A program made the translations under genes and the position numbers. A model generated the notes under the pieces. The model did no database searches and was not told the origin of the DNA. It was given only the letters and a program-made list of their open reading frames with translations. A DNA stretch of 64,000 nucleotides from the NCBI RefSeq assembly GCF_030068445.1, contig NZ_JAQPOK010000088.1:1-64000 (forward strand), given 5' to 3'. Source of the stretch: Roseofilum halophilum BLCC-M91. GTDB taxonomy: Bacteria; Cyanobacteriota; Cyanobacteriia; Cyanobacteriales; Desertifilaceae. Below are positions 38,356 to 48,281 of the stretch, one piece after another (positions within the stretch are counted from its first letter, which is position 1; the number at the start of each line of letters is the position of its first letter).

Positions 38356-40377
38356 TTACCAAAAATAACCGTCTTTAATGGTGGTTTGGCCGTTGGTGGG
38401 GTCGTATTTGAGCAGGTATTCGCGGGTAATGGCTTCTTGATTGCGTAGATTTTCGATTTCGGTTTGGGCGATTTCGGTGTCAGTAGAGAGGAGAATCACT
38501 TGGTGGGAGGCGCTGGGGAAGTAGCGCTCGATTAGGTTTTGACGGTGGGAGGAGTCGAGGCGACCGAGGGGGGTATCAATGGCGACGGGGAGTTGGCGGC
38601 CGGAGACTCTGGCGAGACCCCATAAAAAGGCGATCGCCAACAGTTGCTTTTCTCCGGCCGATAAACGGTGTTTGGGCAGGGGTTTACCTTCGCAATCATA
38701 CAGAGACAGGCTGTAATCTTCGGTACTGACGACGACGCGGTGAACGAGGTCGGATTTATGCAGGAGGTAGCGGAAGCACTCGGTTACCTGGTTTTCGAGC
38801 TTGTTTAGTTTTTTCAGGGTCAGTTTTTCTCGGTATTTTTCCAGTATCGTTTTCACTCTGGCAATGGAGTTGATGATATGGGTGGCGTTTTCCTGAGCCA
38901 GAAACTTTTCGCTGTAGTCTTTGAGTTGTTTTTTCACTTCTTCGATGCTGCGCTCAAGGTCTCGGAGTTGACGATGTTTGTATTCTAAATCGATTTCGAG
39001 TTTGGTCTTTTTGTCGTTGGCTCGTTCTTTGGCTTCCCTTAATTCTTGATAGCGTTCGGGAGAGGCGGCGACGGTAAGTTTGCGCTCGACATCCATCAGT
39101 TGCCGTTCTAACTTTTCCAGATATTTGGATTCTGCTTGGGCTTTTTCCCGTTGGCTGGAAATATCGTAGGCGATCAGTTTTTCTAGGGTTTCCAGTTCTT
39201 CGGGGGTGGCGTGCAGCCAGGTATTTTCGGGGGGTAAGATTTCCTGTTCTAAATGGTGGTAATCTTGCTGTAAAAAGGATTGAATATCTGTAGTTTGGGA
39301 CTGGGCAAGTTGCAGGGTTTGCAGATAATCGAGTAAACGCCGATCGCGCTCCTGAATGCGATCGCGGGAAATTTGCGCTTTTAAGGACTCCTGTTCCGCT
39401 TTTCCTTGGGCGATCGCCTGCTCCATCAAGGGTTCAATCAGACTCAGGGGTAAGGAAGTAGCAGCTAAATTCACCAGTGCGTCGCGAGTCTGCTGGATTT
39501 TCGCCTCTTCGCTTTTTCTCTGTAAATCAAGCTGATGGCGTTCGGCCGCGATTTTTCCCCCTTCGGAGACAAACTCATTTTCGGCTTCTTTAGCCTTGTT
39601 AATCGCCCGTTTGAGCATATGTTCTGTATTTTTGATCTCTTGGGTAATGCGCTCCTTCTCCCCGTCATATCCCTTGAGTTTGCGGTCAATTTCCTCTAAA
39701 TTACCCAATTCCTGCTTATCGGCGATCTGCTTTTGCTGACGACGGGAGAGGATGTCTAAGTCGGTGTCCAGGCGATCGGCTAATTCTAACCCCAATAAAG
39801 ACTGAATCGCCTGCACCACTAAGGGAGGGGGAGCATCAAGATCGGCCAATTCTTTCACCTGTTCCCCATCAAATAAAAACAGATTGGAAATACCCAAAGG
39901 TAACAGGTTTTCGATATAATCATCCCAAGTATCTCTAAGGGTATTTTCCGGAAATTCACCATTCAAAATCCCCAAAGTATCCTTACTATCTTGCTTTGTC
40001 CAATAGCGGATAATTCGCAGTTGCGTATGGAATTGAGATTCTGGGTCATCGGGGTTGAGGGTGTCGGTTTTGGCGATTTTGCTGCTATCCCCAGAAATAA
40101 TCTGCACCAAAAGTTCTAATCGGGTTTTTTCTGAGTCTGGAGTATGGCGATTAATGCATTGCTTGAGAAAGTTACTATAACTGAGATTTCCTCGCGTGGA
40201 ACATTCGGCTCGATGACCATAGAGGACTAAGCGAATGGCATCCATGAGGGTCGTTTTTCCGCCCCCATTCATTCCCCCTAAGAGGAGGATGGGTTTACCC
40301 TCGTTGGGGCGCAGGTTGAGGACTTGTCTACCCCTGTAGGGGCCGAAGTTTTCTAATACGAGTTCGAGGAAGATCAT
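38356..40377 (-). CDS. dndD: DNA phosphorothioation ATPase DndD
   Basis: SMC/Rad50-like ATPase of the DNA sulfur modification system, 673 residues. N-terminal Walker A GGMNGGGKTT (34-43) is followed by LFLFDGEQVKELA, a long coiled coil (about 215-530, KGYDGEKERITQEIKNTEH ... RDLERSIEEVKKQLKDYSE) and the C-terminal lobe. That lobe has signature HRLSAGEKQLLAIAF (from residue 571) and Walker B LPVAIDTPLGRLDSSHR. DndD is thought to act with DndC (and DndE) when sulfur is put into the DNA backbone. It lies downstream of dndC, separated by 117 bp containing repeats. Confidence 0.92.
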   Translation of the reverse strand: MIFLELVLENFGPYRGRQVLNLRPNEGKPILLLGGMNGGGKTTLMDAIRLVLYGHRAECSTRGNLSYSNFLKQCINRHTPDSEKTRLELLVQIISGDSSKIAKTDTLNPDDPESQFHTQLRIIRYWTKQDSKDTLGILNGEFPENTLRDTWDDYIENLLPLGISNLFLFDGEQVKELADLDAPPPLVVQAIQSLLGLELADRLDTDLDILSRRQQKQIADKQELGNLEEIDRKLKGYDGEKERITQEIKNTEHMLKRAINKAKEAENEFVSEGGKIAAERHQLDLQRKSEEAKIQQTRDALVNLAATSLPLSLIEPLMEQAIAQGKAEQESLKAQISRDRIQERDRRLLDYLQTLQLAQSQTTDIQSFLQQDYHHLEQEILPPENTWLHATPEELETLEKLIAYDISSQREKAQAESKYLEKLERQLMDVERKLTVAASPERYQELREAKERANDKKTKLEIDLEYKHRQLRDLERSIEEVKKQLKDYSEKFLAQENATHIINSIARVKTILEKYREKLTLKKLNKLENQVTECFRYLLHKSDLVHRVVVSTEDYSLSLYDCEGKPLPKHRLSAGEKQLLAIAFLWGLARVSGRQLPVAIDTPLGRLDSSHRQNLIERYFPSASHQVILLSTDTEIAQTEIENLRNQEAITREYLLKYDPTNGQTTIKDGYFW

Positions 40378-40379
40378 AA

Positions 40380-40497
40380 ATCAATTAACAATTAACAATT
40401 AAATATGGTTGTGCCCTCTCCCTATATCCCTCTCCCACGGGGAGAGGGACTTTACCCCCTTCTCCTGTGGGAGAAGGGGGCAGGGGGATGAGGGCTA
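40380..40497. repeat. AATTAAC heptamers and CCCTCTCCC repeat between dndD and dndC
   Basis: Three AATTAAC units, then a copy of the CCCTCTCCC element whose last base forms part of the TAG stop codon of dndC. The rest of the spacer is repeat only. Confidence 0.75.
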
Positions 40498-42165
40498 ATC
40501 CTTCTGAGCAGAAGAACCAAACTTAAACTCTCCCCAACCTAAACTGAGTTGTTCACTTGCAGGTGGGGGTTCGGGTTTGGGTTGGTTGTCGGGATGGTTA
40601 GGATCGGCTTTTTCGGGGTTTTTAATGATCTCTTCGACTTTCTCCGCGTCCCCTTTTAAAACGGCAGTTTTGATGGCTCGTTGAAAATGGGCCTGTTGAA
40701 TGGCTTTTTCTCGTTCGCGAGAACTGATTTCAAAGCATTTGCTCAGAGCCTCATAAATGCCGGAGCGACTGCTTTTGTTTTGATATTGGCGCTCGGTATT
40801 CAGGAGTCTGGCGAGTAGCTCGAATTCCATGGAGTCCTTATCGGTGACCTCTTCGAGAACGCTCCATTCGTCTAAACCGAGGAGGGTGCGATCGCCTTCT
40901 GGACGGCGATCGATGAATTCCTCTCCCGTAACTTCTTGATAAATTTGGGGTAAGCTATCTTCAAATTCATGTTTTTCTTCTAGCCAAATGCGGCGAATTT
41001 CGCTCAATTCTTCCGGAGTAATCAAGGTTATTTCTCCCATTTCTGGCGGTGCAGTTTGCCGAATTTGTACCTGTGCTTGGAGCAGTCGTCTGAGCAGGTA
41101 TTCCCGCCATTCTTTCTTATAAGGGCCGGGAATGGGCTGGAGTTCGGTTGATGGATTTTTTTGACGATCGGGTTGTTTATCATCCGTTTCAACTTTGCGT
41201 TCAAACAGTTCGACTTTTCCATAAATACGCCGAAAATCTCGTTTATCGCGATCGCTTTTTGTATCCAGTTCATTGCGCAGATCTAAAAGCGGTTGCAACC
41301 ATTCCTTTTCTTCATCATTTTGGATCATGGCTTCCATGGATTTATCCTTGTTCACCATGGTACAAACCCAGCATCCAAAGCGAGAACTTCCACAACTGGG
41401 GGTTGAGGTATCGACGACTAGGGGGCATTCGTTATCGGCAGTTGCTCCCCGATACATGGAAAAGAGGTCTTTGTTATTGATTCCCCAAGGATTTTCCCAT
41501 TGCATGAGGTACATCCAAACTTCATCAGTTCGCCAATCTTCAATTGGACTGTATACTAGAGAGTTAGGTAAACGAGAGTTAGGGCTTAACCTTTCACGTA
41601 TTCTACCTTCTTCATACTTTTCCATCACTGATGCACGAATAGAGCTTTCAGCTTTACGAATTCCTAAAACAACAATAGTTTCACCATACGTTCTAATTAC
41701 GTCTCGGATAAAAGAGTTAACTGGCTGAATTTTCATTCTATCTGTACACCACCGAAAACCTGGGCGAGGCGCAGGATATCCTTTCCCAAGCAAACAAACC
41801 CAAAAACTATCTTTGAAATTCGGATAAAGTAAGTGAGCTTCAATCGGCATTTGCTGCTCTTTTGCTGACTTTCTCATGTTTCTGATCGATTCTTTTACCC
41901 AAGCAGCAACAATCGGATTTTCAACTAGGGTATCTGTGGTGATCGCATGAACTGTTTTAGTTCTGCGCTCTATCGGTAATCTGGATAAGGCATTCCAGAT
42001 AAGCTGTAAAATTACGGTTGAATCCTTACCACCACTGTATCCTATCACCCAAGGAATTTCATCAAGACAGTAAAGATTCTGAATTTCCTCGATGAGTTTC
42101 TCAATCGTAATGATAAACTCATCGACGGTACGCTGTGGCAAGAGTGAAGGCTTAGTCGCTGTCAT
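40495..42165 (-). CDS. dndC: DNA phosphorothioation sulfurtransferase DndC
   Basis: PAPS-reductase-like ATP pyrophosphatase, 556 residues, that mobilises sulfur for DNA phosphorothioation. Evidence is the PP-loop GYSGGKDSTV (Ser44-Ser49) and the cysteines WCTDRMK, NECPLV and CGSSRFGCWVCTM, likely ligands of an iron-sulfur cluster. The C-terminal region (about 400-540) is charged, and the end is very acidic and proline-rich. The stop codon is formed at the edge of an interspersed repeat, so a few residues may have been lost or replaced. It is divergently transcribed from the DGQHR gene. A cysteine desulfurase (DndA/IscS) must be supplied from elsewhere. Confidence 0.93.
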   Translation of the reverse strand: MTATKPSLLPQRTVDEFIITIEKLIEEIQNLYCLDEIPWVIGYSGGKDSTVILQLIWNALSRLPIERRTKTVHAITTDTLVENPIVAAWVKESIRNMRKSAKEQQMPIEAHLLYPNFKDSFWVCLLGKGYPAPRPGFRWCTDRMKIQPVNSFIRDVIRTYGETIVVLGIRKAESSIRASVMEKYEEGRIRERLSPNSRLPNSLVYSPIEDWRTDEVWMYLMQWENPWGINNKDLFSMYRGATADNECPLVVDTSTPSCGSSRFGCWVCTMVNKDKSMEAMIQNDEEKEWLQPLLDLRNELDTKSDRDKRDFRRIYGKVELFERKVETDDKQPDRQKNPSTELQPIPGPYKKEWREYLLRRLLQAQVQIRQTAPPEMGEITLITPEELSEIRRIWLEEKHEFEDSLPQIYQEVTGEEFIDRRPEGDRTLLGLDEWSVLEEVTDKDSMEFELLARLLNTERQYQNKSSRSGIYEALSKCFEISSREREKAIQQAHFQRAIKTAVLKGDAEKVEEIIKNPEKADPNHPDNQPKPEPPPASEQLSLGWGEFKFGSSAQKD

Positions 42166-42250: not shown

Positions 42251-43444
42251 ATGGTTCAAAATACAGATCATAACACTGAGGATGAATTAGATCTCAATAA
42301 AGTTATCAATCCTTACCTGGCTGAACATCATCGCGATCGGTGCTACCCTGCCTTGATTTTTAACCAAGGAAATCGGCAGATGCTACAAATTAATGTTCCA
42401 GCCCATGATCTTCCTACTCTCTTACAGGCAAAACACTCTACTGATAACAATCCTGACTCTGGCAAAAACCGCCCTGAAGTCCCAGGGCATGTCAATGAGA
42501 TTAAAGACTATATTCGAGAAAGAGTGACAAGAAATCGGCCCTGGGTATTAGGTACAATAACAGCTAATGTTGATCCTTCCGAGATTAAGGTTATTCACTT
42601 AGGTCGTGGAGTTGGTCTAGCAGTTATCCCCAGAAATGTCAAGTTAGATATTACTGATGGACAGCATAGAATTAGAGCTATTGATGAGTTGGCTAGAAGT
42701 CCAGAAAATAGCTTAATTGGTGATGACGACTTTCCCATTACGCTTATACTAGAGCCAGAATTTAAGCAATGCCAAACTGATTTTCGGGATATGGCACAAA
42801 CTAGACAGTTGGATAAGTCATTACTATTATCATTTGGGGAATTTGAAGGACGTATTGGAATTACTAAAAGTATAATTGAATCTGTTCCAATGTTTGCCCA
42901 TAAAACGGAAAAGATAAAAGGTAGTCCTTCTACTAACAAAAAGCTTATATACACAATCAACTACCTCGTTAAGTTTGTTAGTTGTGCTTTTACAGATGAT
43001 GCAAATAAAGAACTACTTGGCTATGATGTCGAAAAGTCCTCTAATGCTCTGATTTCTTGTTGCAACTACTTTTTCTCAAACTGTAGAAACACAAAAGAAA
43101 TTTTTGAAAAAGACATCAGAGAGTTAACGACTGAAGATGTGGGTAAATTCAAAGATAACTGTATTTTAGGTCGAAGTGTTGGATTAGAAGTGTTAGGGCG
43201 CTTATTACATTACACTTATGATAAAGATAATAATATTTTTGATGAAAATCATGTTTTTAAGCTTTCTCAATTAGATTGGTCAACAGGAAGTAATCTATGG
43301 AATGGAAGTATTGTCAAAGTCGATCCTAATCCCAAAAATCCAACTAAACCCTACAAAATTGCTGCAAGTATGAATCTTGTGAAGATTGCAGTTAATGAAG
43401 TTAAGGAGCAATTAGGGTGGCTTGATCATACTCCACTGTTCTAA
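42251..43444 (+). CDS. DGQHR-domain protein (Dnd-associated, DndB-like)
   Basis: 397 residues with the intact motif Asp136-Gly-Gln-His-Arg140 in ITDGQHRIRAIDELA, preceded by a beta-rich region with NQGNRQMLQINVPAHDLPTLL. The same motif defines DndB-type and related proteins of phosphorothioation loci. It is divergent from dndC, across an 85-bp promoter region. The gene is noticeably more AT-rich than its neighbours and contains no full GCGATCGC, suggesting later arrival. It may be a regulator or a modification partner. The exact task is unknown. Confidence 0.8.
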   Translation: MVQNTDHNTEDELDLNKVINPYLAEHHRDRCYPALIFNQGNRQMLQINVPAHDLPTLLQAKHSTDNNPDSGKNRPEVPGHVNEIKDYIRERVTRNRPWVLGTITANVDPSEIKVIHLGRGVGLAVIPRNVKLDITDGQHRIRAIDELARSPENSLIGDDDFPITLILEPEFKQCQTDFRDMAQTRQLDKSLLLSFGEFEGRIGITKSIIESVPMFAHKTEKIKGSPSTNKKLIYTINYLVKFVSCAFTDDANKELLGYDVEKSSNALISCCNYFFSNCRNTKEIFEKDIRELTTEDVGKFKDNCILGRSVGLEVLGRLLHYTYDKDNNIFDENHVFKLSQLDWSTGSNLWNGSIVKVDPNPKNPTKPYKIAASMNLVKIAVNEVKEQLGWLDHTPLF

Positions 43445-43505: not shown

Positions 43506-44522
43506 TCATGTTTCCAAAAACCCCATCAAATAGTCGCGCATCCAAACCCTAGTGGTAGCAGAAACCGGAAAGCGTCCCTTAATGATAATCGAATCTTGCC
43601 AAACCGGGTTAGCCACCGACCAATCCACCGCCGCCAAACCCTGTAAGTAAATTTCCCAAGACTCCGGGTACAGAGACAACAGGGTAACCCCTACCTCTGC
43701 TAACCCGAAAAAGGCGATCGCCTGACAACACACATAATGCTCCCTAACTTCCCACGCCCTCAACTCCCCCGTCAACACCGATCGCCAAACTGGTATCACC
43801 TCCCCTATCCCCCGCCAAAATAACACCGCTTGCGCCACAGTCACCCCCCGATCGAGCATATGCTGTATTGCCGGATACACCATCGACAGGGTAAACAGCT
43901 TACCTGACTTCGCCCCTAAGCGGCTCCGTTCCAGATCGGTTAACTCCCGTAAATTTCGCACATTGCGAACAACTTCTAATACCCAACGGTTGCCCCATTG
44001 CCGATGGTTATACAACCACCCCAACCCCGGATCGAGAGCTATGCTATGGCAATTGAGATCGTAAAACATTTGCTGCGATCGCTCCAATCCCATCGCCAAA
44101 AAGAAACACACCGCGATCGTCTCATATCCCAGCTCTGGATGCTCCTGTAATGCCCATTCCAGCGCCATCCGACGATGCCACCCATCATTAATGGTTAACG
44201 TGGCATCCATGGGCACATACAAGCGCCCCATCTTCCAATCTTCCCCTTCCTCACTCACCGGTTCAAACCGCGTATCCCCATCAATAGCCACCGTCAGCGC
44301 CGGTAAAATATAGCTGTCTAAATTGTCTAAAATATAACGGCATAAACTCCTGATCCGAGACCGAGAAGGCGATCGCCCCACCCGCAACACCGGATCGCTC
44401 TCCCCCATCCCCACCGGGAATAGCTTCGGTAAAAACCGCAGAGGACACATCGATGTATAATACTCATCTCCCCCCTGAATCCCCCGAACCACTGGTAGCA
44501 CATACTCAAACGCCGTCAACAT
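43506..44522 (-). CDS. dndB: DndB, DNA sulfur modification regulator, with altered DGQHR motif
   Basis: Matches DndB by VVRGIQGGDEYYTSMCPLRFLPKLF at the start, RYILDNLDSYILPALT, MDATLTINDG and GLERSQQMFYDLNCHSIAL. In other systems DndB represses or restrains the dnd operon, but the reason for the family motif is not known. Here the motif reads DGWHR, with Trp116 in place of the usual Gln (counting from the GTG at 44525). The codon is a clean TGG. I use the ATG just after that GTG. It is convergent with the first DGQHR gene, 61 bp apart. The frame is intact, so this is not an obvious pseudogene. Confidence 0.85.
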   Translation of the reverse strand: MLTAFEYVLPVVRGIQGGDEYYTSMCPLRFLPKLFPVGMGESDPVLRVGRSPSRSRIRSLCRYILDNLDSYILPALTVAIDGDTRFEPVSEEGEDWKMGRLYVPMDATLTINDGWHRRMALEWALQEHPELGYETIAVCFFLAMGLERSQQMFYDLNCHSIALDPGLGWLYNHRQWGNRWVLEVVRNVRNLRELTDLERSRLGAKSGKLFTLSMVYPAIQHMLDRGVTVAQAVLFWRGIGEVIPVWRSVLTGELRAWEVREHYVCCQAIAFFGLAEVGVTLLSLYPESWEIYLQGLAAVDWSVANPVWQDSIIIKGRFPVSATTRVWMRDYLMGFLET

Positions 44523-44525
44523 CAC

Positions 44526-44859
44526 CCTTTCCCCCCGCGACTCCTCCAGTATGACACACTTTTTAAAAAGTTGAGTCAGTTTTAGAAAACTTATTGCCCC
44601 TCTATCCCTCTCCCCAGGGGAGGGACTTTGAACCCCCTTCTCCCGTGGGAGAAGGGGGCAGGGGGAAGAGGGCGTATCTTCCCGCAGGTGTTGCCCTCTC
44701 CCTCTATCCCTCTCCCCAGGGAGAGGGACTTTGAACCCCCTTCTCCCGTGGGAGAAGGGGGCAGGGGGAAGAGGGCAAACCAGCCAACATCAATGAGATA
44801 ATCAACCTTAACCCCAATTTTTAATTTTTAATTTCTAATTTTTAATTTTTAATTCCCCC
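44526..44859. repeat. Two tandem CCCTCTCCC repeats and AATTTTT heptamers
   Basis: Two near-identical CCCTCT..GGGAGAGGG..CTTCTCCCGTGGGAGAAGGGGGCAGGGGGAAGAGGGC copies (about 44590-44686 and 44691-44780). A heptamer array AATTTTT then runs at 44816-44854, ending six bases before the next start codon. No gene. Confidence 0.8.
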
Positions 44860-46374
44860 ATGACCATTCTCGACCCACTCCCACCCCACCAACTCCTCGT
44901 CCAAAAAACCCAAATGGGACAAAGCCAAGCCTACCTCGCCTCCGTCACCCTCGAATGGCTCTCTAACCATGTCCGGTTTGCTCACCAACTCCCCCTCTTT
45001 CAACACAAATTCGACCCCCAAACCCACAACCCCATCCGGGATGCTGAAACCATCGAACACCTACAACAGCGCCCCCTTGACTGGTCGCGCCAAGCCCCCC
45101 TAGCCCAATATCTAGCTGTCCGTCCCAACCACAAATTCCCCCCCATCCTCGCCGTTGTCAGTCCTCCCTGGGTCGATGAACCCCATGCCCCCGAATGGGA
45201 CGGAGAAGATCGGGCTACGGAGTCCGCCGCCCAATTTACTCCCCTCAACCGCGACCAAACCCTGGGCCTACTGAACCTCGATCGCAGTATCTCCCTTTTT
45301 GCCCTCGATGGCCAACATCGGCTCATGGGTATCCAAGGACTGATGGAACTGATCCGCACCGGTTCCCTACCCAAATACAAGAAAAACAGAAAGCCCACCG
45401 GCTCCAACATTACGGCTGAAGACCTCTATCAGCACTACCCCATCACCCCCAGCCAACTGCAAAACCTAGGCCAAGAAACCATCGGCCTGGAAATTATGCC
45501 CGCCGTCCTGCCTGGGGAAACCCGCGACCAAGCCAGGGGGCGCATTCGCTCGATTTTTGTCCATGTCAACCTGATGGCGGTGCGCCTGAGTGCCGGTCAA
45601 CTGGCGCTTCTGAATGAAGATGACGGCTTCTCTATTGTCGCCCGTCGTCTCGCGGTTAACCATCCTCTACTGAAGGCAGAGAGCGATCGCCACCCTAGAG
45701 TCAACTTTGACAGCGCCACCGTCTCCACCAAATCCACCGTTCTGACTACTCTCCCCGCCCTCAAAGACATGGCTCAAGCCTATCTCCAGCATCCCTATCC
45801 CCACTGGAAACCCACGGAAAAAGGACTGATTCCCCTGCGCCCGGAAGACGAGGAACTCGATGAGGCGATCGCCACCTTTTCCACCCTCTTCGACCACCTG
45901 GCCAACCTCCCCAGCTACCAAGCTTTAGAAATGGGTACTTTGAGTACCGACCTACGCCGGTTCAGCTTTGAAAGCCATGATGGCCAAGGCCATATGCTCT
46001 TCCGTCCCGTGGGTCAAATCGCCCTCGTTCGGGCGATCGGTATCCTCGTTTACCAACACCACCTCAGCCTCACCCCCATCTTCACTCAACTCTGCGCCTA
46101 TGATGCCCAAGGGGGCTTCAGTCACATCGATCACCCCGAATCTCTCTGGTACGGTATCCTTTTTAACCCCACCAAAAAGCGCATCCAAGTCTCCGGCCGG
46201 GATCTAGCCACCCGTTTGCTGATCCACCTAATCAACGACACCCCCGACACCTTAGATCGGGCCCAACTGCGCCAAGACCTAGCCAACGCCCGCACCTTCC
46301 AAGACAAAGCCCTCAGCTTCGACGGTAAATTAGTTCACCCGCGCCAATTACGTCTACCGGGGCAATTGGGGTAA
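44860..46374 (+). CDS. DGQHR-domain protein, large variant
   Basis: 504 residues with Asp150-Gly-Gln-His-Arg154 in LFALDGQHRLMGIQG, the third protein of this type at the locus. The following region (IFVHVNLMAVRLSAGQLALL, SIVARRLAVNHPLL, TKSTVLTTLPALKDMAQAYL) is characteristic of longer DGQHR proteins found with phosphorothioation genes. It has no membrane segment. The start lies directly after the A/T heptamer array and no Shine-Dalgarno can be seen. Its GC content is higher than the first DGQHR gene. Role unknown. It may be a regulator, a DNA- or protein-binding partner, or part of defence. Confidence 0.8.
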   Translation: MTILDPLPPHQLLVQKTQMGQSQAYLASVTLEWLSNHVRFAHQLPLFQHKFDPQTHNPIRDAETIEHLQQRPLDWSRQAPLAQYLAVRPNHKFPPILAVVSPPWVDEPHAPEWDGEDRATESAAQFTPLNRDQTLGLLNLDRSISLFALDGQHRLMGIQGLMELIRTGSLPKYKKNRKPTGSNITAEDLYQHYPITPSQLQNLGQETIGLEIMPAVLPGETRDQARGRIRSIFVHVNLMAVRLSAGQLALLNEDDGFSIVARRLAVNHPLLKAESDRHPRVNFDSATVSTKSTVLTTLPALKDMAQAYLQHPYPHWKPTEKGLIPLRPEDEELDEAIATFSTLFDHLANLPSYQALEMGTLSTDLRRFSFESHDGQGHMLFRPVGQIALVRAIGILVYQHHLSLTPIFTQLCAYDAQGGFSHIDHPESLWYGILFNPTKKRIQVSGRDLATRLLIHLINDTPDTLDRAQLRQDLANARTFQDKALSFDGKLVHPRQLRLPGQLG

Positions 46375-46455: not shown

Positions 46456-47643
46456 ATGTATATGAGCCATCAACCTGAATTGCTTTTAGGGCGATCGCTT
46501 CGTCAAGCCCGTGAATTAGCCCAATTGTCCCAAACCGAAGCCGCCCAAAAACTCCGTATTACCCCTGCCGCTCTCAGCCAATACGAGAGCGGGAAGCGAC
46601 GCATAGAGGCTCTCATACTCGATCGCTTGGCCCATTTATACGGTGTTCCAGTCACGTACTTTTTTGACGATAATAATCACCAAAACCCCTTACCTCATTG
46701 GGAAACCCATTTAAGAAGAATGGCTCAGGATCTATCGCCAGAAGCTAAAGCCGGAATTACCCAATTAATTCAAATCATTCATCAACTCGAACAACTGTAT
46801 CAGATTACCCATACTCCATTGCCCGTAAACGGCGATCGCCCCCTACACCACCCCTTTCCCCCACTCTCTCAGAGCCAATATTCCAACGATCAAATCGCTC
46901 AATACGCCCAAAAAGTGCGCCGCCACTTTAACTTAGGCATGGCTCCCCTGCACTATTTAAAAACATTTCTTGAGACTCAAGGATATCCAGTATTTTCCGT
47001 TCCCCTTGGTGGAGGAAATAATTCACTCACCGGACTGTTTTTGTGCCATCCCACATTAGGAGCCATCCTTGTCATCAACGAGAAGCAATCTTATACCCGC
47101 TTTCCTTTCCTCCTCAGCCATGAAATAGCCCACTGTTTCTTTCACTGGGATCGCTATGCCGTCCTCTGTCCCTTGAACAGCAACGATCCCCAAGAACAAT
47201 TTGCCGATCGCTTTGCCTCCTACTTTCTCATTCCTCCCGAAGGATTACAGGAATTACTAGATACTATGGGTATCAAAACTGTCAAATATCCCGAAGAAGT
47301 CATTCACATTGCCCGATACTTTGGGGTAAGTTATGGGGATACCTTGCATCGATTAGGCGGCGATCGTAAACTCGGAGTATCCAAAGAACACTTTAAGGGA
47401 GTAAAACCCGTCGCCTTAGCCACATCTTTAGGCTATAGTTACTTACCCAATTCATTCGAGATCCGTCCCCTCCCCCCTGAAGAGCGTCTTCCCAGAATCT
47501 TTTTAGAATTAAGCCATAAAGCCCTCAATCAAAACTTGCTCTCTCTCAGGCGCGTCGCTGAAATTCTAGGCATTAGCGATCTAGAATTAGAAGATCGACT
47601 CAATGAAGAATCCCTAGAAGTTCCAGAAGAAATTTATGCCTAA
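46456..47643 (+). CDS. XRE-HTH / ImmA-IrrE metallopeptidase-type regulator
   Basis: 395 residues. Residues about 8-70 form an XRE helix-turn-helix (LRQARELAQLSQTEAAQKL, ITPAALSQYESGKRRI). From about 150 to 300 is an ImmA/IrrE-like domain with zinc motif His222-Glu223-Ile-Ala-His226 (LLSHEIAHCFFHW) and the following EQFADRFASYFLIP glutamate. Such fusions act as repressors that can be inactivated by proteolysis and as antitoxins in HTH-peptidase modules. Five bases separate it from the PIN-like gene, so the two form a coupled pair, at the edge of the Dnd island. Confidence 0.87.
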   Translation: MYMSHQPELLLGRSLRQARELAQLSQTEAAQKLRITPAALSQYESGKRRIEALILDRLAHLYGVPVTYFFDDNNHQNPLPHWETHLRRMAQDLSPEAKAGITQLIQIIHQLEQLYQITHTPLPVNGDRPLHHPFPPLSQSQYSNDQIAQYAQKVRRHFNLGMAPLHYLKTFLETQGYPVFSVPLGGGNNSLTGLFLCHPTLGAILVINEKQSYTRFPFLLSHEIAHCFFHWDRYAVLCPLNSNDPQEQFADRFASYFLIPPEGLQELLDTMGIKTVKYPEEVIHIARYFGVSYGDTLHRLGGDRKLGVSKEHFKGVKPVALATSLGYSYLPNSFEIRPLPPEERLPRIFLELSHKALNQNLLSLRRVAEILGISDLELEDRLNEESLEVPEEIYA

Positions 47644-47648
47644 AGTTT

Positions 47649-48281
47649 ATGACTCAATTTGTTCTGGACACCGTAGTTTTGCGGGTCTTCGCTTTTTCTC
47701 ATCCCCAAGGCATTGACATTCTTTTAGAAGCCCTGAATACCCCTCAAGCCATTTTCCCCTCTGAAGTCTTCAATGCTGATGAAAATAACTTACCTCTAAC
47801 AGAATCTGACCAAAACTTAAGTGAATTAGCCAGAGGATTACGATACGCACGTCGCCAAGTTCAATCACAACCAGAGCTTACCAGAAAACGCTTTCAAATC
47901 CGTTTAGAAAACGCCAACCAACTTTATCACCACCTTCAAACCGGTAGCCTTTTAATCACCCCCTTAGAACTCCAAGAAATTCCACGCCGAGAACAACTCA
48001 TGACCACCCATGGCATTGGTCGGGGTGAATCTGCTTGCTTAACCTTAGCTGAACGCAATACCAGCATTGCCATCTTTTTATCCAGCGACGAAGCTGCCTG
48101 TCAAGTTGCACAAATTCTCGGCATTGCCCACTTAACTATTCCCGATATTTTACGCCAATGGATACTTGAGGTTAATCCTACCCTAGAACAATTTCAAGAC
48201 TTAATCGAGGGCATGAAAAACGCAGCCTTCACCCTCCCAAAACCCATTGACCAAGAGCTAAACCAGCTTTTTGAACTTTGA
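47649..48281 (+). CDS. PIN-like nuclease-type protein, candidate toxin
   Basis: 210 residues. An N-terminal FVLDTVVLRVFAFSH carries an Asp, and GRGESACLTLAERN and FLSSDEAACQVAQILG follow in positions expected for the acidic residues of a PIN-like metal site. The middle helix region (NLSELARGLRYARRQVQSQ) is charged. It is the second gene of a tight pair with the XRE-ImmA regulator, a configuration seen in toxin-antitoxin modules. Toxic nuclease activity is inferred. The fold assignment is moderate because the sequence is divergent. Confidence 0.6.
   Translation: MTQFVLDTVVLRVFAFSHPQGIDILLEALNTPQAIFPSEVFNADENNLPLTESDQNLSELARGLRYARRQVQSQPELTRKRFQIRLENANQLYHHLQTGSLLITPLELQEIPRREQLMTTHGIGRGESACLTLAERNTSIAIFLSSDEAACQVAQILGIAHLTIPDILRQWILEVNPTLEQFQDLIEGMKNAAFTLPKPIDQELNQLFEL

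Follow-up and report, generated by a model that had tools for sequence, protein, structure and literature searches.

Tryptophan at the motif glutamine of a Roseofilum DndB is one part of a wider pattern of variation in Cyanobacteriales

The glutamine that names the DGQHR family is replaced by tryptophan in the DndB protein of a Roseofilum dnd locus. The replacement is real and was correctly read in an earlier note on this DNA, but it is one part of a wider lineage pattern in which the third residue of the motif varies while the other four motif residues do not. Comparison of DndB sequences suggests that this position, residue 116 of the Roseofilum protein, became dispensable or was retuned in one cyanobacterial lineage.

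A divergent DndB and its tryptophan codon

The window, meaning the whole stretch of 64,000 nucleotides of Roseofilum halophilum DNA that was analyzed, carries dndB among the following features.

38356-40377, minus strand: dndD, ABC-type ATPase (TIGR03185, 632 bits)
40495-42165, minus strand: dndC, sulfurtransferase of DNA phosphorothioation (TIGR03183, 696 bits)
42251-43444, plus strand: P2, a DGQHR/PF14072 paralogue of 397 amino acids (PF14072, 287 bits; TIGR03187, 81 bits)
43506-44525, minus strand: dndB, 339 amino acids from GTG, or 338 amino acids from ATG at 44522
44172-44186, minus strand: DGWHR motif (Asp114-Arg118), by direct translation
44178-44180, minus strand: Trp116 codon TGG, in place of the family Gln (CAA/CAG)
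44526-44859, no strand: dndB-P3 intergenic region with two 62-nt G/C-rich direct repeats
44860-46374, plus strand: P3, a DGQHR/PF14072 paralogue of 504 amino acids (PF14072, 63 bits; TIGR03187, 157 bits)

The dndB frame is open across 339 codons, and the stretch of the minus-strand protein that carries the DGWHR motif reads MDATLTINDGWHRRMALEWAL. The earlier note had placed a Trp codon (TGG) at the Gln position of the motif within 44166-44195, and that interval indeed brackets the motif. Its description of the surroundings holds for the DG-HRR part but not for the exact form ITxDG-HRR, as the local sequence is TINDGWHRR. It had also argued for substitution rather than decay, and we agree, as the frame is intact and the remaining DndB signature is kept.

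Sequencing or assembly error has a negligible chance of explaining the Trp: Roseofilum acuticapitatum (L044, which is the G004 locus), a separate species that was sequenced and assembled independently and whose protein is 82% identical, also reads TGG at this codon, and a third species of the genus (G005) has ATG (Met) there. Among DndBs, the codons found at position 116 are TGG (Trp), ATG (Met), TTA (Leu), AAA or AAG (Lys), AAT (Asn), GAA (Glu), and CAA or CAG (Gln), and getting from Gln to Trp takes two base substitutions. On the DndB tree, the lineage that is the nearest sister to Roseofilum (L214) has Lys at position 116, and thus it is plausible that the change passed through an intermediate such as Lys or Leu.

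The protein is a divergent member of its family. The product of 43506-44525 belongs to PF14072 (299 bits, against a gathering cutoff of 29.1 bits) and scores 320 bits with the PADLOC DndB profile. With TIGR03233, however, it scores 294 bits and falls below the equivalog cutoff of 328 bits, and a strict NCBI rule would not name it DndB. It is nevertheless the closest to DndB among the three DGQHR-type proteins of the window, as P2 scores only 66 bits with both TIGR03233 and the PADLOC profile. On the tree, the product groups within the clade of cyanobacterial DndBs, with starred support; P2 and P3 are not rows of that tree, and their separation from DndB rests on profile scores. The gene adjoins dndC and dndD, and dndE lies on a different contig of this genome (G000:C1:35248-35577). 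We treat 43506-44525 as a divergent DndB orthologue because of its placement on the tree and its gene order. Of the residues that define DGQHR membership, Asp, Gly, His, and Arg are present, and Gln at the third position is absent.

DndB/DptB of Salmonella enterica Cerro 87 is the repressor of dndBCDE (PMC4507180). The Roseofilum protein is like it in being of the same family, in having dndC and dndD nearby, and in keeping the conserved Cys29 region ("MCPL"): the cysteine of MCP[LV] is retained as Cys27, a correspondence drawn through an alignment with L076. It is unlike the Salmonella protein in having Trp for the motif Gln. The loci differ as well, since in Roseofilum P2 interrupts the gene order and P3 flanks it, and no match to the Salmonella-type operator TACG-N10-CGTA lies near dndB; the window holds three one-mismatch matches, versus 9.5 expected. 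The direct repeats of the dndB-P3 intergenic region (44598-44776) are 95% identical and 103 nt apart, and each has the palindrome CCCCCTTCTCCCGTGGGAGAAGGGGG. They are possibly a dispersed cyanobacterial repeat.

Variation of the third motif residue among DndBs

The dndB genes compared were gathered from 389 genomes of Cyanobacteriales plus class and phylum samples, plasmids, and phages; a single-protein scan of viral contigs gave no match. In 68 cyanobacterial DndBs, a set that is mostly Cyanobacteriales, the third motif residue is Gln in 45, Leu in 8, Asn in 5, Lys in 4, Glu in 3, Trp in 2, and Met in 1, such that 23 of the 68 carry something other than Gln. Trp is not a common state of DndB, as it was found in two Roseofilum species only. 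The alignment with cyanobacterial DndBs that the earlier note had proposed as a check therefore finds Trp to be rare, and yet finds position 116 to be variable in Cyanobacteriales.

The variation is confined in two respects. First, in an alignment of 93 DndBs, D114, G115, H117, R118, and A121 show zero changes, whereas position 116 changed at least nine times, seven of them between Gln and another residue, on a tree that was built with residue 116 masked. Second, all of the changes at position 116 lie inside one Cyanobacteriales clade of 64 rows, and every sampled DndB with a readable motif has Gln if it comes from another phylum or another cyanobacterial order. Tree length is 12.6 within the clade versus 15.9 outside it, and at a uniform rate, nine of nine changes would fall inside with a probability of about 6e-4, a value to be taken as a rough guide only, since the clade was picked after the data were seen. 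As all of the changes fall within it, the family-naming Gln appears to have been freed in that clade only. Moreover, six different replacements and at least nine changes, with D, G, H, and R invariant, indicate that Trp is not the single odd mutation of one strain. Gln at position 116 is evidently not essential to whatever maintains DndB in these genomes.

The probable fold of DndB and readings of the replacement

DndB was previously assigned to the ParB/Srx fold (PMC10853773, PMC11662687, PMC4619093), and matches to an AlphaFold2 model of DndB agree. The model was made from six sequences, and its top structural matches, over about residues 15 to 163, are PadC, ParB, sulfiredoxin, Noc, SspE, BrxU, and KorB, with Z of about 4 to 6 (4.5 to 5.9 for the top ones) on a modest model (mean pLDDT of 61), values that would not stand alone. 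A sequence search of solved structures found no relative, and Foldseek alone with the DndB model gave no match below an E value of 0.001. Our tentative assignment of the fold rests on the agreement of the weak top matches with one another. In the model, DGWHR lies at the start of a helix that follows a strand. Sulfiredoxin (GCHR) and ParB (GxxR of Box II), the best structural matches, would be like DndB in fold and in phosphate-binding element but are only about 15% identical to it in sequence, and sulfiredoxin has Cys at the third position. The DUF262 NTPases BrxU, SspE, and DndI have a ParB/Srx-type fold, as DndB probably does, with the motif DGQQR in the same register as that of DndB; unlike DndB, they are nuclease fusions and have Gln at position 3 and Gln, not His, at position 4. 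The third residue differs from one family to the next, which makes its position the family-specific one within the motif.

As far as the consulted part of the BrxU report goes, four residues of D98 G99 Q100 Q101 R102, namely, D98, Q100, Q101, and R102, were modeled at the gamma-phosphate; Q101A and R102A, which alter the fourth and fifth motif residues, bound ATP but did not hydrolyze it; and Q100, the third residue, to which Trp116 corresponds, does not figure among the mutants described there (PMC8565348). Mutation of the Arg equivalent to R102 likewise abolishes hydrolysis, as R87A in DndI (PMC11662687) and as R133A in SspE (PMC13251355). A DndB-like protein binds both ATP and GTP, and noncatalytic binders within the fold have been allowed for (PMC12704722). 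In the literature that we searched, the DGQHR motif is named, no test of its Gln was found, and neither was an experiment on a non-Gln DndB. By analogy with these relatives, nucleotide binding most likely persists in the Trp116 DndB, and hydrolysis is probably reduced.

From the observed substitution, its distribution, the invariance of its neighbors, purifying selection, the fold match, and gene order, we infer, at about even chances, a functional lineage variant of DndB that keeps nucleotide binding via D-G-H-R, has lost or retuned a Gln-related hydrolysis, and is perhaps compensated by a paralogue. The N-terminal half (about residues 15 to 163) would be a nucleotide-binding fold of the ParB/sulfiredoxin type and the C-terminal half helical, with D-G-x-H-R at the helix start as the putative phosphate-binding element (Box II, GxxR). 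As D, G, H, and R are absolutely kept, phosphate binding should persist. Residue 116 would be in motif register with Gln100 of BrxU, which is modeled to position the gamma-phosphate, and with the Cys in GCHR of sulfiredoxin. Constraint on the third residue would have been lost in Cyanobacteriales, permitting repeated replacement by Leu, Asn, Lys, Glu, Met, and Trp. DndB would then keep nucleotide and DNA binding and its role as dnd regulator with poor or nil ATP hydrolysis, and a Gln-bearing P3, often also P2, would supply the hydrolyzing or switching function. A non-Gln DndB may be tolerated because the locus carries these Gln-bearing paralogues. Substitution between Gln and other residues has occurred at least seven times naturally with the rest of the motif unchanged, and the natural variants (L, N, K, E, M, and W) allow one to ask whether ATP hydrolysis by DndB is needed or binding is enough.

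Alternatively, the substitution could be neutral, the third residue facing away from the chemistry and the Trp protein working normally both as ATPase and as repressor. Neutrality is consistent with six replacements of unlike chemistry (L, N, K, E, W, and M) next to untouched D, G, H, and R, in intact reading frames under purifying selection. A neutral site would also vary elsewhere, however, and Gln is invariant in the DndBs sampled from other phyla and orders and in both paralogues; moreover, the modeling in the part of the BrxU report cited above has the equivalent Gln at the gamma-phosphate (PMC8565348). We consider neutrality rather unlikely.

Early decay, in which DndB is turning dispensable in Roseofilum and Trp is one sign of lost function, seems to us improbable. 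dndB is intact in three of six Roseofilum species (G000, G004, and G005) and lost from the other three, of which two (G001 and G002) keep short remnants, one of them with a stop, and the last (G003) keeps none, whereas dndC, dndD, and dndE are present in all six. DndB is thus optional there, as expected of a regulator without which modification itself can proceed (PMC8569181). Roseofilum DndB sits on a very long stem branch (1.2 changes per site), has a median identity to other genera of 48% versus 63.5% among those others, and differs at 7 of 55 columns that are otherwise conserved; the branch and the columns fit general relaxation also. Several members of the Leu clade, too, are truncated or carry stops. 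Against decay, dN/dS of dndB between species is 0.13 to 0.25, in a range similar to that of dndC and dndD, and thus the gene is maintained where it is intact. In the Asn, Lys, and Glu lineages, the gene is intact and the branches are ordinary. That the window copy is a pseudogene is ruled out by its open frame of 339 codons and a dN/dS of about 0.15 to 0.25. We note that the remnants lie at L122:9798-9956 and L123:9888-9977 and that L124 is without dndB; dndC, dndD, dndE, and P2 remain in these genomes.

Finally, an aromatic residue in the phosphate or base pocket might confer a new property by shifting nucleotide preference or by locking one DNA-binding state. Nucleotide preference differs widely within this fold (PMC12704722), and in StSspE, loss of hydrolysis through an R-to-A mutation comes with tighter binding of substrate DNA (PMC13251355). 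A consistent requirement for an aromatic residue is not seen, however, as the close relative G005 has Met and the sister lineage L214 has Lys, and we regard a new property as very improbable.

Neighboring paralogues and the order of the locus

A functional variant compensated by a paralogue, the reading we prefer, directs attention to P2 and P3. P2 is convergent with dndB and occupies the slot between dndB and dndC, with DGQHR intact at 42656-42670, and P3 is divergent from dndB, with DGQHR intact at 45307-45321. Both are DGQHR proteins of the TIGR03187/PF14072 type that have domain and locus in common with DndB, but they keep Gln at every locus examined (60 of 60 for P3 and 34 of 34 for P2), and DndB does not. 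Thus, the earlier statement that the other two DGQHR proteins retain Gln is true of the window and also order-wide.

Locus order in the Cyanobacteriales clade is strongly conserved, as a divergent P3, dndB, the slot, dndC, dndD, and usually dndE. Beyond that clade, all of the readable loci are without a P3 adjoining dndB, and their DndB keeps Gln. The pattern fits release of the constraint on the DndB Gln after P3 arrived, and we take it as a lead. The association rests on a single acquisition event in the tree, Gln persists in the DndB of 38 P3-bearing loci, and at one locus with Leu (L133), the 20 kb covered contained no P3. No link is apparent between a non-Gln DndB and the presence of P2. 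It is a tentative and doubtful further idea that the Cyanobacteriales dnd locus carries two or three switches of the ParB/Srx type, with P3 (and P2) hydrolyzing and DndB a binding-only "pseudo-NTPase." If so, regulation of DNA sulfur marking would be divided among paralogues. The fixed order of the three genes also makes P2 and P3 obvious candidate partners.

The slot that P2 fills in the window is put to other uses elsewhere. At 24 other cyanobacterial dnd loci, an HNH nuclease is found in or near it, and the one at L126:11745-12764 matches NF045808 (PT-DNA restriction) with 120 bits, below the cutoff of 180. A nuclease expected to recognize phosphorothioated DNA is paradoxical within a phosphorothioation locus, and a survey of gene neighborhoods described this kind of coupling as rare (PMC7461809). 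The HNH nuclease and P2 are mostly alternatives, and both occur in L184 and L201. At L127, L212, L128, and L129, different DGQHR proteins of about 600 to 670 codons lie between dndB and dndC, with the motif contexts VVVDGQHRLRA and AVAVDGQHRLWA. A second DndB-like protein with 30% identity and EGQRR instead of DGQHR is encoded at L135:8498-9508 (G029). Lastly, just beyond P3, the window encodes at 46456-48281 a protein with an HTH and an M78 peptidase (RmrA-like, by PADLOC), followed by a protein of 210 amino acids with a weak PADLOC match to PDC-S70, and the two may be a regulator and its partner.
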